Shown in pieces: positions 14,247 to 19,472 of a stretch of DNA of 33,824 bases. How positions within the stretch are numbered: the stretch's first letter is position 1; every line of letters begins with the position of its first letter. Where the stretch lies: positions 1 through 33,824 of IMG/VR virus record IMGVR_UViG_3300043540_000712; one strand, given 5' to 3'. Source of the DNA: a virus. The notes beneath the pieces were generated by a model. That model made no database searches, was not told the DNA's origin, and was given only the letters and a program-made list of their open reading frames with translations. The position numbers were made by a program, and so were the translations under genes.

Positions 14247-14681
14247 TCAGAACCGGCCCGCGCCGGGCTGGCATGCGTCCCGCCGATGCTCCCGATCGCG
14301 CCCCCAGCGCGCGGAAACCCGTTGTGTTTGGCGCGCCCGCTCCGCCGCGCGCTCCACCTCGGCCAGCAGCCCCGGCCGGACCTGGCCAAGCACGACCTGG
14401 CGCTCGGCCGGCACCGTCAGCAGCTTCGAGACGTCGATCACCAGGCGATCGGCAAGCGCCGAGAACATCATCCGGTCCGACCAGTGGGTGAGTTCAACGT
14501 CGGTCGCCCGCTCCGGCTCCCGGAACCAGACGCGCCACAGCGCCACCTGGCCGCCGGCTGCGCGCGCAACCAGGCCAACGTGGCGGCCATGCCGCACCGC
14601 TGCGCCGCGCTGCAGCCGCTGATCTGTCGGGATTGTGGAGGGGCACCGGCGAACAGGCGTCGCCGCGATCATGCCCAACAT
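14247..14681 (-). CDS. Hypothetical protein upstream of recombinase (up to 144 aa)
   Basis: I do not recognise it. The middle and end read as a real folded protein: GGQVALWRVWFREPERATDVELTH, then MMFSALADRLVIDVSKLLTVPAERQ and a long helix LLAEVERAAERARQTQRV. The first 30 residues are basic. There is no clear ribosome-binding site before the ATG at 14681 or the next ATG at 14672, so the start is open; CTATAT just upstream could allow leaderless initiation. It is oriented like the recombinase and is separated from it by the TTATGGG motifs. Confidence 0.5.
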   Translation of the reverse strand: MLGMIAATPVRRCPSTIPTDQRLQRGAAVRHGRHVGLVARAAGGQVALWRVWFREPERATDVELTHWSDRMMFSALADRLVIDVSKLLTVPAERQVVLGQVRPGLLAEVERAAERARQTQRVSARWGRDREHRRDACQPGAGRF

Positions 14682-14809
14682 ATAGCGGAATCAGCCGCGA
14701 AATCTCCGGTCGATTTGCGGATTTCCGGATTTGTAATGCGAACCCGGCCTCAGTCCTCGATTTACGCCGAGTCCGTTGCAAAAAAATCTCCGGTGACAGT
14801 CATTTACTA

Positions 14810-14838
14810 TTGCCAGACAGGTAATTACTCAGTACAAA
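14810..14838 (+). promoter_or_regulatory. Promoter of the ArdC-type gene
   Basis: TTGCCA (14810-14815), 17-bp spacer, TACAAA (14833-14838), in an AT-rich pocket from 14765 to 14870. Transcription would begin near 14845, about 40 bases before the ATG of the antirestriction gene. Confidence 0.6.
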
Positions 14839-14885
14839 CAAATATAGATGGAGGATGGTCTTCACTATATTCGCAGGCACCGAAG

Positions 14886-15749
14886 ATGACCCGCCAATAC
14901 CAGCAAGTCACAGACCGCATCATCAGCATGTTGGAGAAGGGCGTGCGCCCCTGGTCGCAATCCTGGAATGCCCATGCCCGCGGCGGCCGGCCGCTCCGCC
15001 ATGACGGCACGCCCTATCGCGGCGCCAACGTGCTGAACCTCTGGGCCGCCGGCATGGCCCGCGGATTCACCAGCCCGTACTGGCTGACCTACAAGAAGGC
15101 CCAGGAGATGGGTGCCCAGGTGAAGCGGGGCGCCAAGTCCGAGCTCGCCTTCTTCGTCGGCACCGTGAAGCGGACCGAGGAACGGGACGGGGAGGACGTG
15201 GAGCGCACGATCTCCTTCCTGAAAGCCTACAACGTGTTCAACGCCTCGGAGGTCGAGGGGCTGGGCGCCCGCTACTACGCCCCGGCCGAATGCCCCGTGC
15301 TCGACGAGGCGAACCGGATCCTGGAGGTTGACCGCTTCATGGCGGCAACCGGCGCGAAGATCCACCACGGGGGTGGCCGTGCCTTCTACCGCAGGGACAC
15401 AGACGAAGTTTACATGCCCGAGTTCGGCAGTTTCGATTCTGCCTCGGCTTACTACGGCACGGCCTTGCACGTGCTAACACACTGGACCGGCGCCGAGAAG
15501 CGGCTGGATCGGACCTTCGGCAAGCTGTTCGGCGATCCCGATTATGCCTTCGAGGAGCTGGTCGCCGAGCTGGGTGCTGCCTACCTGTCGGCCGACCTGC
15601 GGATCAACGCGGAGCCGCGCGAGGATCACGCCAGCTACATCAGTGGCTGGCTCAAGGCGCTGCGGGACGACAACCGCAACATCTTCCGGGCCGCTGCCTA
15701 CGCCGAGAGGGCGGCCGGATACCTGCACGGGTTGCAGTCGGTCGCTTGA
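14886..15749 (+). CDS. ardC: ArdC-type antirestriction protein with altered zincin motif (287 aa)
   Basis: ArdC proteins protect incoming DNA from type I restriction and pair an N-terminal ssDNA-binding domain with a C-terminal zincin domain. Here the N-domain shows QVTDRIISMLEKGVRPW, YRGANVLNLW, then WLTYKKAQEMGAQVKRGAKSELAFF and FLKAYNVFNASE. The C-domain ends with FEELVAELGAAYL and SGWLKALRDDNRNIFRAA, both canonical. However, the expected HExxH is HVLTH (residues 195-199): the catalytic Glu is Val at codon 15471-15473, and the usual following His is Ala (TGAE). Full length is otherwise kept. It is the first gene right of the recombinase and is transcribed from its own promoter. It may be catalytically dead yet still bind DNA. 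Confidence 0.92.
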   Translation: MTRQYQQVTDRIISMLEKGVRPWSQSWNAHARGGRPLRHDGTPYRGANVLNLWAAGMARGFTSPYWLTYKKAQEMGAQVKRGAKSELAFFVGTVKRTEERDGEDVERTISFLKAYNVFNASEVEGLGARYYAPAECPVLDEANRILEVDRFMAATGAKIHHGGGRAFYRRDTDEVYMPEFGSFDSASAYYGTALHVLTHWTGAEKRLDRTFGKLFGDPDYAFEELVAELGAAYLSADLRINAEPREDHASYISGWLKALRDDNRNIFRAAAYAERAAGYLHGLQSVA

Positions 15750-15781: not shown

Positions 15782-15898
15782 CGGAGCTATACACTTTAGG
15801 GCTTGACACCTACCCCTTGATCGGCTACATTCCTACTTACCGGACGGGGTTTCCCTTCCGGCCCGCGCCTCGGGGTTCAGGGGCGGAGACGACAAATG
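15782..15898 (+). repeat. 117-bp promoter/leader repeat, copy 1
   Basis: Matches copy 2 (17137-17253) over 117 bp with four substitutions and no gaps, up to and including the ATG of the following gene. It holds a consensus promoter, TTGACA (15803-15808), 17 bp, TACATT (15826-15831). The untranslated leader of about 58 bases contains an inverted pair CCGGA/TCCGG (15840-15861) and a second GC-rich foldback before the GGAG ribosome-binding site. Two of the four differences fall in unpaired positions of the first hairpin. Confidence 0.88.
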
Positions 15899-16165
15899 AC
15901 CAACCACATCGGGCGCACCTTTACCCATCATGGCCTGAAAGGCGCGACGCAGACCGCGACCGTGATTGCTCAAACCGAACCGACGGGCAAGCGCGCGAAA
16001 GTCCTGTTGACGGTGCGCCTCGAAGACGGCACCGAATACAAGACAGATCCCACGCAAATCCCGCAAGAGATCGTTTTCGCCCCTCCCGCGACTGGCCCGA
16101 TGTTCACCGGCCGCGACAAATACCGCTATGACCGGAACGGCCGTATCTTCAGCGTGGAGGGCTGA
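15896..16165 (+). CDS. Cargo protein 1a of IS1595-like unit (89 aa)
   Basis: Starts at the ATG that ends leader copy 1, with GGAG 9 bases upstream. It reads as a small beta protein: TFTHHGLKGATQTATVIAQ, then KVLLTVRLEDGTEYKTDPTQIP and DKYRYDRNGRIFSVEG. No known family and no signal peptide. Codon use is less GC-rich than the phage genes nearby. The next cargo gene begins 2 bp after its stop. Such genes between a leader and an ISXO2-type transposase are probably passengers; the function is unknown. Confidence 0.72.
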   Translation: MTNHIGRTFTHHGLKGATQTATVIAQTEPTGKRAKVLLTVRLEDGTEYKTDPTQIPQEIVFAPPATGPMFTGRDKYRYDRNGRIFSVEG

Positions 16166-16167
16166 TC

Positions 16168-16473
16168 ATGGTCAATCATCCCAATCGCAGCAATGCAAGC
16201 TACCGCTTCATCGCTTTCTTCATGATCACTCTTCAACCCGCCGCGCATGCCGCGACGGCGAAAGACGCGATGGAACTGGCATCGCGCGACCTCCCAGACA
16301 CCGATTTTATCGAAGTCCTCGACTGCGGCGACAACGGCAGAAAGATTTGGACCGGCGGCGTTCAGCCCGCCAACCCAGTGCCACTTCATAAGGCTCGCGC
16401 CTTGCACACGACAGTGTTTCGCGGCGCCGGTTATGCGGAAAGTTGGCCTGCCATCCCTCTGACTGAGGGTTGA
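16168..16473 (+). CDS. Cargo protein 1b, possibly secreted (101 aa)
   Basis: GGAGGG precedes the ATG by 7 bases. Residues 13-29 form a hydrophobic stretch ending PAAHAATA after a basic start, which resembles a Sec signal peptide with an AHA cleavage site. The mature part is small and mixed (DFIEVLDCGDNGRKIWTGGVQP; ALHTTVFRGAGYAESWPAIP) with one Cys. No recognised domain. It sits between cargo 1a and the transposase, with a 3-bp gap to the latter. If exported it would act in the periplasm; that is inference. Confidence 0.65.
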   Translation: MVNHPNRSNASYRFIAFFMITLQPAAHAATAKDAMELASRDLPDTDFIEVLDCGDNGRKIWTGGVQPANPVPLHKARALHTTVFRGAGYAESWPAIPLTEG

Positions 16474-16476
16474 GAC

Positions 16477-17154
16477 ATGACCAGTATCCTTGAAGTTTAT
16501 CGCCGCTGGCCTGACCACGCGGCGTGCATCAAACATCTCGAGACGGTGCGGTGGGGCGAAAGCCCCACCTGCACCTATTGCGCGTCGCAGAAGGTGTCGA
16601 AACATCGCGAGGCACACCGGGATCGTTGGCAATGCCAGGAGTGCAAAAAGAGCTTTTCCGTCACGGTCGGCACGATTTTTCACAACACCCATATCGACCT
16701 GCAACGCTGGTTTTTGCTGGTTTCCCTGATGCTGAGCGCCAAGAAAGGTCTGTCCTCTATGCAGGCCGCTCGACACATCGAAATCCGCCAGCCTACCATC
16801 TGGTCGATGATGCACCGCATTCGGAAAGCGATGACGGACCACGGCGCGCTGCTGACTGGACTGGTCGAGATGGATGAAACCTACGTCGGCGGGAAACCCA
16901 GGAAGGCCAACCGCCGATCTGATGATCCGCCGGGTGGTCAGGGCGTATCGACCAAGCTGCCGATTATTGGCGCGGTTGAGCGCGGCGGACGGGTTAAGGC
17001 CAAGATCGTCAAGCGCGACGAATTGACCGGGGCGGACATGGAAACCGCGACGGTCACGACGGACGAAAACCGGGCTTACAGCCGGATCAACAATTTCGTG
17101 GCGCACCTCTGGATCAACCACTCGGTCAGTTATTCCCGGAACTATACACTTTAG
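16477..17154 (+). pseudogene. IS1595-family (ISXO2-like) transposase, truncated and internally deleted, copy 1
   Basis: N-terminal zinc ribbon: WGESPTCTYCASQKVSKH and RWQCQECKKSFSVTVGTIFHNTHI (CxxC pairs). This is followed by the helix-turn-helix KGLSSMQAARHIEIRQPTIWSMMHRIRKAM and the start of the DDE nuclease, LVEMDETYVGGKPRK (first Asp). A second catalytic region is present (VTTDENRAYSRI), but about 20 residues expected between ELTGADM and TVTTDE are missing. The frame stops at NHSVSYS where leader copy 2 begins, so the HTNxxE-type last catalytic segment is absent. Family length is about 300 residues; this has 225. It should be inactive. Confidence 0.88.
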
Positions 17155-17253
17155 GGCTTGACACCTACCCCTTGATCGGCTACATTCCTGCTTACCGGAC
17201 GGGGCTTCCCCTCCGGCCCGCGCCTCGGGGTTCAGGGGCGGAGACGACAAATG
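17137..17253 (+). repeat. 117-bp promoter/leader repeat, copy 2
   Basis: Same 117 bp as copy 1 (15782-15898) with four substitutions. It has the identical promoter TTGACA (17158-17163), 17 bp, TACATT (17181-17186), and the same foldback leader. Its left edge coincides with the point where transposase copy 1 loses homology to its family, and its right edge is the ATG of a different cargo gene. Confidence 0.88.
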
Positions 17254-17691
17254 CGCAACGGCAAACTGGCCAGCGACCAAGCTATCGAGATCGCCGAACC
17301 GGCGACGGTGGAAAAGGTCGGGGCCAATCGCGCGCGGGCCTTTTACGCCACCCAAGATGCGGCCGACGGCAAGATTTTCCGTGACGCCACGATCCGGAAA
17401 TTCGCCACCGAGGCTGAAGCTCGCGCCTATCTGCTTCAAGGCTACGACCCGAAAGAGTGGGACCTTTCGACCGCTGAAATCGGTCCTGGCGACTACCGCG
17501 ATTGCTGGATGGAATGGATGAAAGCGCCGCGCGTCGGCAATCCTGGTGCGGGCGACGGCTACGCGCCGTTCACGTTCAACCAGCTTTTCATTCAACATCC
17601 TGGTCAGCATCCCGGCGGTCGGTTCTGGTGGATCACGCCCGCCGTGGATGTGTTGATCATTACGGAAATCCACGAAATCGAAGTGGCCTGA
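17251..17691 (+). CDS. Cargo protein 2 of IS1595-like unit (146 aa)
   Basis: Begins at the ATG of leader copy 2. It shares nothing with cargo 1a or 1b. The first half reads TVEKVGANRARAFYATQDAADGKIFRDATIRKFATEAEARAYLLQGYD, like a small alpha/beta domain. The second half is aromatic-rich (YRDCWMEWMK, GRFWWITPAVDVLIITEIHEIEVA). There is no signal peptide or membrane helix and I do not recognise the family. The stop lies 3 bp before transposase copy 2. The arrangement leader-cargo-transposase is the same as in unit 1. Confidence 0.72.
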   Translation: MRNGKLASDQAIEIAEPATVEKVGANRARAFYATQDAADGKIFRDATIRKFATEAEARAYLLQGYDPKEWDLSTAEIGPGDYRDCWMEWMKAPRVGNPGAGDGYAPFTFNQLFIQHPGQHPGGRFWWITPAVDVLIITEIHEIEVA

Positions 17692-17694
17692 CCG

Positions 17695-18369
17695 ATGACT
17701 GGCATCGTCGAAGTCTATCGTCGCTGGCCCACGCGCGAAGCGTGCATCCAGCATCTTGAAAGCGTGCGATGGGGCGAAAGCCCCACGTGCGTTTATTGCG
17801 CGTCCGCCAAGGTCTCGCGCCACCGGGAATCGATGCGCGATGATCGCTGGCAATGCCAGGACTGCAAGAAATCGTTTTCTGTAACCGTGGGCACGATCTT
17901 CCACAAAACCCACATCGACCTGCAACGGTGGTTTTTGCTGATCTCGCTGATGATGGCGGCGAAAAAGGGGCTGTCGTCCATGCAGGCGGCACGTGATCTT
18001 GGAATGCGTCAGCCTACCGTGTGGTCGATGATGCATCGCGTGCGGAAATCGATGGTGGACGATGGGAATCTGTTGAGCGGTATTGTCGAAATGGACGAAA
18101 CGTACGTCGGCGGAAAGCCTCGGAAGGCAAATCGCCGGTCTGACGATCCGCCGGGCGGCCAGGGAGCTACCAGCAAAACACCAGTCATCGGCGCGATCGA
18201 ACGTGGTGGCCGCGTGAAGGCCAAGGCGACCACGAAGGCCGAATTGACGGGCGAGGATATGGTTAACGCCGTCCGCGAGATGGTGGCGAGCAAGGGCAAG
18301 TATAATATTGCCGGACGTTGTCATCATCGGCGGACCCACGAAGGTCGCCGTTGCCTACCTCGTCAATGA
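17695..18369 (+). pseudogene. IS1595-family (ISXO2-like) transposase, truncated, copy 2
   Basis: Roughly four-fifths identical to copy 1 by eye over the shared part: zinc ribbon (CVYCASAKVSRH; WQCQDCKKSFSVTVGTIFH), helix-turn-helix (KGLSSMQAARDLGMRQPTVWSMMHRVRKSM) and the first DDE segment (VEMDETYVGGKPRKANRRSDDPPGGQG). It keeps the VREMVASKG region lacking in copy 1, but family sequence ends at about 18300. The last 25 or so codons are out of family, reading another gene's frame. The second and third catalytic residues are missing, so it should be inactive. The break falls in the sequence GCAAGTATAATATTGCC, which recurs at 19374. Confidence 0.88.
18296..18312 (+). repeat. 17-bp direct repeat, left copy
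   Basis: GCAAGTATAATATTGCC, with one mismatch to 19374-19390 (GCAAGTACAATATTGCC), followed in both places by two bases and GACG. It marks the end of transposase homology. Confidence 0.6.
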
Positions 18370-18822: not shown

Positions 18823-19041
18823 ATGAGCCATTCACCGCCGGTCGCGGACAACATAATCCGTCCGCTTGACCTCCGTCGCACGGCAGCGGCCATCGCCTCT
18901 AACTACGGAGACGAGGGCGCTATCGTGATTACCCGTGGGAAAGACGGGATTAGGGTGGGGGTACACAACCTTAATCCTAGCGATCTGCAAGACGTGCTGT
19001 GTGTCGCTATCCACCACGCCGTAGCGAAGACGCTGGCTTGA
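18823..19041 (+). CDS. Hypothetical small protein (72 aa)
   Basis: ATG at 18823, 51 bp after the previous stop, with no strong ribosome-binding site. The sequence IASNYGDEGAIVITRGKDGIRVGVHNLNPSDLQDVLCVAIHHAVAK reads as a compact alpha/beta protein. I cannot name a family. Its 3' end overlaps the 3' end of the HNH gene on the other strand by 35 bp (tail-to-tail). Confidence 0.58.
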   Translation: MSHSPPVADNIIRPLDLRRTAAAIASNYGDEGAIVITRGKDGIRVGVHNLNPSDLQDVLCVAIHHAVAKTLA

Positions 19042-19318
19042 ATGGATAGGCGTCGCCTTTTTCCCGGTTGGCGTCCGTTTGAAGCGGTTGGAGGTTCTGG
19101 AGATTATCCGATCCTCCTTTAGCCACTGGCTTGATGTGGTCAACTTCCCAGCTTTTTGCCCCCTGCTTTCCGAACGATGGTTTGTAAATCTCATTGCCGA
19201 ACGCGTCGCGGCGATACAGGTCAGGGTCTTTGCCTCTGATCTGCTCACCTTTATCCCACACCTGCGCGATGCGTTCTGGCGATATGGCAGAGCGGGACGG
19301 GGTTTTGCGGGTAGCCAT
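19007..19318 (-). CDS. HNH endonuclease-like protein (103 aa)
   Basis: The core HNH is clear near the end: WEVDHIKPVAKGGSDNLQNLQPLQTDANREKGD, with Asp-His, Asn and a closing Asn/Lys region in place of the classical last His. The N-terminal part is basic (SAISPERIAQVWDKGEQIRGKDPDLYRRDAFGNEIYK). The ATG at 19318 follows AGGG by 8 bases; a longer start at 19384 would lack one. It differs clearly from the HNH at 11.6 kb (no Cys pairs). It lies on the minus strand inside the segment bounded by the 17-bp direct repeats, so it may have travelled with that insert. Confidence 0.82.
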   Translation of the reverse strand: MATRKTPSRSAISPERIAQVWDKGEQIRGKDPDLYRRDAFGNEIYKPSFGKQGAKSWEVDHIKPVAKGGSDNLQNLQPLQTDANREKGDAYPFKPASSLRRGG

Positions 19319-19373
19319 TCGAGTCGCCCTTGTGCTGATAGAGCTTGTGCGCTCCCAGATATAGTTTGGGTTT

Positions 19374-19390
19374 AGCAAGTACAATATTGC
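19374..19390 (+). repeat. 17-bp direct repeat, right copy
   Basis: GCAAGTACAATATTGCC, same orientation and one mismatch to 18296-18312. Together the two copies enclose 1.06 kb with four small genes and one gene remnant. Confidence 0.6.
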
Positions 19391-19472
19391 CCCGACGGCC
19401 CGATATCTGCCCGTCGAACCCCGTTGCCACTGGCCATTAGAAAAGTGTCAAGGGAAGGCACGCCTCAGTAGC

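Follow-up and report, generated by a model that had tools for sequence, protein, structure and literature searches.

Two adjoining elements in the genome of a temperate phage, here called U1 and U2, are probably degraded, phage-associated transposons of the IS1595 family with a modular cargo slot, in which small genes have been replaced by recombination. From their sequence we read them as a new variant of this family. The window, i.e. the whole stretch of DNA analyzed, is an IMG/VR virus record of 33,824 bases, in which PHROG matches to a terminase, a portal, two integrases, and a ParB-like protein indicate a temperate tailed phage. Immediately left of U1 lies a gene encoding an ArdC-like anti-restriction protein (ArdcN and MPTase-PolyVal; 14286-15749), which places U1 and U2 within an apparent counter-defense region. 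The components of both units are listed in Table 1.

Table 1. Positions of U1, U2, and their components in the window.
Feature	Position	Strand
U1 (leader, two cargo genes, transposase remnant)	15782-17136	
U1 left terminal inverted repeat (LE), 26 bp, CGGAGCTATACACTTTAGGGCTTGAC	15782..15807	+
U1 promoter: -35 TTGACA (overlaps LE), 17-bp spacer, -10 TACATT	15803..15831	+
U1 portable 5'UTR module: hairpin, then CCCGCGCCTCGGGG...CAGGGGCGGAGAC (15862-15890), GGAG Shine-Dalgarno	15836..15895	+
U1 cargo 1, 89 aa	15896..16165	+
U1 cargo 2, 101 aa, N-terminus MVNHPNRS	16168..16473	+
U1 IS1595-family transposase remnant (30-nt internal deletion; cut by U2 insertion)	16477..17136	+
U2 (leader, one cargo gene, transposase remnant)	17137-18297	
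U2 left terminal inverted repeat, within U1 transposase	17137..17162	+
U2 promoter TTGACA-N17-TACATT	17158..17186	+
U2 5'UTR module (motif 17217-17245)	17191..17250	+
U2 cargo, 146 aa	17251..17691	+
U2 IS1595-family transposase remnant, without 3' part and right end	17695..18297	+

As the original prediction had proposed, the two units share a leader (15782-15895 and 17137-17250) with four differences and no gaps, here measured as 96% identity over 114 bp, and have homologous transposases, 76-77% identical over their common part. Their cargo (89 and 101 aa in U1, 146 aa in U2) is indeed unrelated, its DNA identity being 67% compared with 65% in a shuffled control. The leader identity ends abruptly, as had been noted, but not exactly at the cargo ATG: repeat family D2 runs just beyond it, to 15904 and 17259, respectively. 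Duplication during assembly was ruled out as the origin of the pair because the transposases differ by approximately 23%.

Both transposase remnants match DDE_Tnp_IS1595 (PF12762) and Zn_ribbon_IS1595 (PF12760) above the Pfam cut-offs and score 111 (U1) and 108 (U2) bits against the NCBIfam IS1595 transposase model NF033547 (cut-off 75 bits), to which an intact relative at locus L023 matches with 180 bits. Both genes are broken, as expected from the earlier reading: U1 lacks 30 nt internally and is truncated by the U2 left end after position 17136, and the homology of the U2 transposase stops at approximately 18298, with loss of its 3' part. In the alignment of the U1 and L078 transposases, homology is unbroken up to ..GTCAGTTATTCC, after which the U2 left end begins (CGGAACT). 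Since this left end lies inside the U1 transposase gene, the units, previously described as a head-to-tail tandem, are instead a nested insertion and not a designed array; U2 would have jumped into U1. No right end was found for U1 or U2, and therefore the pair is immobile as it stands, which agrees with the prediction. Where the homology of the U2 transposase ends (18290-18312), there is a 15-mer, AAGTAYAATATTGCC, that recurs almost identically at 19374-19391, where an HNH endonuclease gene on the minus strand (19010-19384) begins; the approximately 1.08 kb between the two sites contains unrelated small ORFs, and the pair could mark either an HNH-associated insertion or a deletion joint.

Relatives of U1 and U2 are mostly metagenomic contigs, found by searching sequence collections through pattern filters. 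A pattern scan with the U2 transposase identified 12 viral loci, and a profile-based scan 51, some of them separate loci on one contig; the U2-transposase search of 85,000 species genomes yielded two loci, one in a Sphingomonadaceae MAG and the other a distant relative in Latescibacterota. Transposase scans, the profile scan, and end-pattern scans together defined a close lineage of 31 elements including U1 and U2. The relatives (approximately 30) lie nearly all on viral contigs, and the genes flanking several of the loci are phage genes, encoding, for example, DNA polymerase, helicase, and head morphogenesis proteins. The exact 22-bp left end of the window type had no match in IMG/VR, where relatives emerged with looser patterns; BLAST searches returned no whole unit among INPHARED phages and no true leader match among PLSDB plasmids (a single 23-bp chance match).

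The leader itself is composed of a left terminal inverted repeat with the -35 box inside it, a predicted sigma70-type promoter, and a 5'UTR. The same 26-bp left end occurs in approximately 30 relatives, and an inverted copy stands at their right ends, so that terminal inverted repeats are present around intact relatives, where the original prediction had suggested looking for them. Exact 8-bp target duplications lie outside both ends in 13 close relatives (L067, L068, L069, L070, L071, L073, L075, L079, L080, L106, L107, L108, and L110), for example AAATCTTT (L069), GCAGGATC (L067), GAAAAATC (L079), and CCCCGTTG (L080). These two traits of the IS1595 family are thus found in the lineage, the right ends and duplications coming from the relatives, and U1 and U2 keeping their left ends only. 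In most intact copies the right-end repeat, on the opposite strand, encodes the last residues of the transposase (..VKP-stop). The -35 TTGACA overlaps the end of the left repeat, and a -10-like box usually follows 17 bp on; a match of at least four of six positions to TATAAT at 16-18 bp spacing is found in 22 of the 31 elements (71%) versus 6% of random positions. Because cargo and transposase both lie behind this left-end promoter, one promoter would drive both. Between the left end and the transposase, 30 of the 31 elements carry one to four ORFs; in the exception, L074, as in the closest sister elements found (L004, L081, L087 type), approximately 70-95 bp separate the left end from the transposase, and any extra DNA is located downstream. 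Four elements (L106, L107, L108, and L110) have an internally deleted transposase with both ends and exact 8-bp duplications kept. They were possibly moved by a helper; as a reading of their duplications, trans-mobilization was set aside, since deletion after insertion explains them equally well.

Cargo replacement is indicated by comparisons of close relatives. Among U1, U2, L078, L083, L099, and L090, leaders are 87-97% and transposases 76-91% identical at the DNA level, with cargo at the shuffled level except in the L083/L099 pair. The same is seen within the groups L072/L073 and L075/L098/L110, in which transposases are 83-91% identical in DNA and 93-99% in protein, the ends match, and the cargo is unrelated; L075 and L098, whose transposase proteins are 98.6% identical, differ in cargo and, beyond the first 31 bases, in the 5'UTR. 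Conversely, homologous cargo is found on separate branches of the transposase tree (U2/L003/L088, with E-values down to 2e-30, L098/L104, L078/L110, and L080/L098). Unrelated cargo on near-identical elements, combined with homologous cargo on different transposase lineages, argues that the exchange is real as a pattern, which we infer from comparisons of mostly metagenomic contigs. Breakpoints vary: they lie at the start codon (U1/U2), at the start of the 5'UTR (U1 and locus L129, described below), or inside the transposase gene, as in L083, whose first approximately 180 nt are 87-95% U2-like, whereas the remainder resembles U1 and L078, with 83-90% identity to L078 over most of its length. 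Loci that combine the same leader or ends and an IS1595-type transposase with differing cargo are thus common, and we found neither a leader restricted to the window nor a leader and cargo evolving together as one IS. The idea of a modular element that swaps cargo behind a fixed leader holds for the swapping, seen in many relatives, but not for the leader, which is not one fixed, IS-bound signal.

Nearly all cargo genes are orphans; among the exceptions are PAPS-reductase/SspD-like genes inside the transposons at L101 (3288-4004) and L105 (634-1389). U1 cargo 1 has no match in Pfam, PHROG, NCBIfam, PADLOC, or PDB, and its homologue in L129 lies outside any transposon. U2 cargo has homologues among the cargo genes of L003 and L088 and among non-transposon genes in L167-L173; neither PDB nor BFVD yielded a significant fold match to its AlphaFold2 model (mean pLDDT 77.6; an earlier model with pLDDT 40 was unusable). 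A second, weakly HTH-like cargo gene is present in L068 (Aca2_YdiL, E=0.012) and L104 (Xre-like, E=0.0026), both under curated cut-offs, and a cargo gene of L003 resembles that of L068. In L167-L171, small HTH genes come after the non-transposon genes of the U2 type, with matches likewise under curated cut-offs; this layout is reminiscent of anti-CRISPR/Aca operons, which we treat as a lead only, and neither U1 nor U2 has an Aca-type HTH gene after its cargo. With so many orphans among them, part of the cargo ORFs could be decaying DNA, but for at least some this is contradicted by the homologues they share and by the conserved spacing of Shine-Dalgarno sequence and start codon.

The second half of the leader, which contains the motif CCCGCGCCTCGGGG-N-CAGGGGCGGAGA ahead of the start codon, proved not to be specific to the transposon. 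The exact motif occurs twice in the window (0.00 expected), and the same module is present in 25 IMG/VR viral contigs, approximately 20 of them without a downstream transposase. It always lies shortly before small ORFs of varied sequence, many of which are of the MTNHPNRS type; 37 motif sites lie directly before start codons of diverse ORFs. The proposed tie between the leader and IS1595 transposases therefore applies to the first half, i.e. the transposon end and promoter, but not to the second. No copy was found in 301 cellular genomes of the sphingomonad order, and model R1 gave one convincing site in 385 alphaproteobacterial genomes (L165, upstream of an NHDNR gene), a second match, inside a coding region, being likely due to chance. 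An MxNHPNR gene is present in 13 of the 14 close-lineage elements with the motif and in none of the 17 without it (Fisher p = 7e-8, uncorrected for relatedness), and on the transposase tree the motif is scattered, with at least four changes. In L129, which has neither a transposon end nor a transposase, the U1 sequence from the 5'UTR through cargo 1 into the first codons of cargo 2 is matched with 84% identity over 354 bp; the match begins at 15836, approximately the predicted U1 transcription start, and ends at the NHPNR codons, which suggests that, besides the start codon, the start of the 5'UTR and that of the NHPNR gene are exchange borders. Locus L121 (5543-6110) has three tandem motifs, each heading a different small ORF, and no transposase. 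Related VLVTT.HRGVFFGYA-type proteins follow or neighbor the motif in L132, L136, and L165, i.e. in viral contigs and one bacterial genome, where the locus is a probable prophage. L003, L104, L068, and L173 have another type of leader, in which a GGC..GGGG..CCCC..GCC-like hairpin precedes a strong Shine-Dalgarno sequence; in L173 this leader stands before a U2-type gene and without a transposon end.

Evidence for an RNA structure in the 5'UTR is modest. An Rfam scan of the region returned nothing significant, and the folding energy of the window leaders is no better than that of shuffled sequences (z 0.93 and 0.18), so that we claim no strong structure. Covariation is seen at only two pairs, which differ in three of the sequences, and a possible pseudoknot, CGCCUC/GGGGCG, is invariant in sequence; the motif contains the GCGCCTCG loop and the GGGGCG strand tied to this candidate.

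Known IS elements with passenger genes, together with the functional constraint on the 26-bp end and promoter, which are conserved across the lineage, favor another explanation, namely an ordinary IS whose cargo was captured once and diverged with the element, leaders staying alike through constraint. We consider it rather unlikely, since cargo at shuffled identity between flanks 87-97% and 76-91% identical, the unlike leaders and cargo of L075 and L098, and the presence of one cargo family on separate transposase branches all speak against it, as does 5'UTR conservation extending well past the 26-bp end. Even less can be said for site-specific, integron-like cassette exchange at the joint between leader and cargo, which we regard as very improbable: the joints at start codons are sharp and the window encodes two phage-type tyrosine integrases, but both match phage integrase families and neither adjoins U1 or U2, and the breakpoints differ among comparisons. 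Behind the likeness to gene cassettes drawn at the outset, no integron-like machinery was seen, neither an attC/attI site, with the Rfam scan of the region giving nothing significant, nor IntI.

A more serious competitor, which we consider possible though clearly less probable than the replaceable slot, reverses the roles: the phage 5'UTR with its small gene would be the primary mobile unit, and the transposon would merely have inserted beside such modules or picked them up repeatedly, without a particular role in exchanging them. The contigs with the motif but no transposase, including the triple array of L121, favor this explanation, as do the L129 homology, which stops exactly at the module borders, and the scatter of the motif on the transposase tree. 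Against it stand the 17 elements that have other 5'UTRs and yet share the slot architecture and varied cargo, which argues that exchange in the slot does not depend on the motif.

An intact element runs from the 26-bp left end with its -35 box through the -10 box, the 5'UTR, and one to four small cargo genes to a transposase ending (VKP-stop) in the inverted right end. If the slot is the exchanging unit, the replaced block would have the promoter or 5'UTR as its left border and the beginning of either the NHPNR gene or the transposase gene as its right border, and replacement would most likely proceed by homologous or phage-recombinase-mediated exchange at these conserved joints, either with other copies of the element or with resident phage genes whose 5'UTR and gene-start sequences are the same. 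Such exchange may be helped by copies that are co-resident or nested, as U1 and U2 are, and transposition may then spread the new combination. This suggests that phages use the transposon as a ready-wired slot for the trade of accessory genes, from which the phage may benefit. More tentatively, the slot may be a mobile, pre-wired means of trading small anti-host or anti-defense genes, spread by transposition, with the 5'UTR acting as an undescribed phage RNA that controls translation.

How small accessory (moron-like) genes enter phage genomes and move between them is poorly understood. As both flanks of the slot are recognizable, the transposon end or the 5'UTR motif can serve as a query for the systematic collection of cargo from any virome. 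This offers a route to orphan genes that phages retain and trade, a few of which may counter bacterial defenses, and makes it possible to test the long-standing idea that phage mosaicism involves conserved boundary sequences.

The IS1595 family (ISXO2-like) comprises the groups ISPna2, ISH4, IS1016, IS1595, ISSod11, ISNwi, and ISNha5, whose members usually carry a single transposase gene (PMC8101967). U1, U2, and their relatives share with this family a transposase with Zn-ribbon and DDE_Tnp_IS1595 domains, terminal inverted repeats, and 8-bp target duplications, but differ in the one to four exchangeable cargo genes placed between the left-end promoter and the transposase. Like integron gene cassettes, they present variable genes behind a fixed promoter, whereas their breakpoints vary and each element has its own transposase. 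The mycobacteriophage mobile elements MPME1/2 (439 bp, with a 6-bp addition at the left inverted repeat; PMC3029335) are likewise very small mobile elements resident in phage genomes, but are unrelated; the duplication here is 8 bp, and no cargo exchange is described for them in that study. The SAS/ESAS of cluster K mycobacteriophages, short Shine-Dalgarno elements near the starts of unrelated small genes and essentially absent from the hosts (PMC3203893, PMC12699233), resemble the 5'UTR motif as conserved elements that contain a ribosome-binding site, lie just upstream of unrelated phage gene starts, and are sometimes preceded by an inverted repeat. The analogy is functional only, the consensus being GGGATAGGAGCCC there and CCCGCGCCTCGGGG...CAGGGGCGGAGA here; moreover, SAS/ESAS occur in many copies, in contrast to the 5'UTR motif, which is present in one or a few copies per contig and is also built into a transposon.
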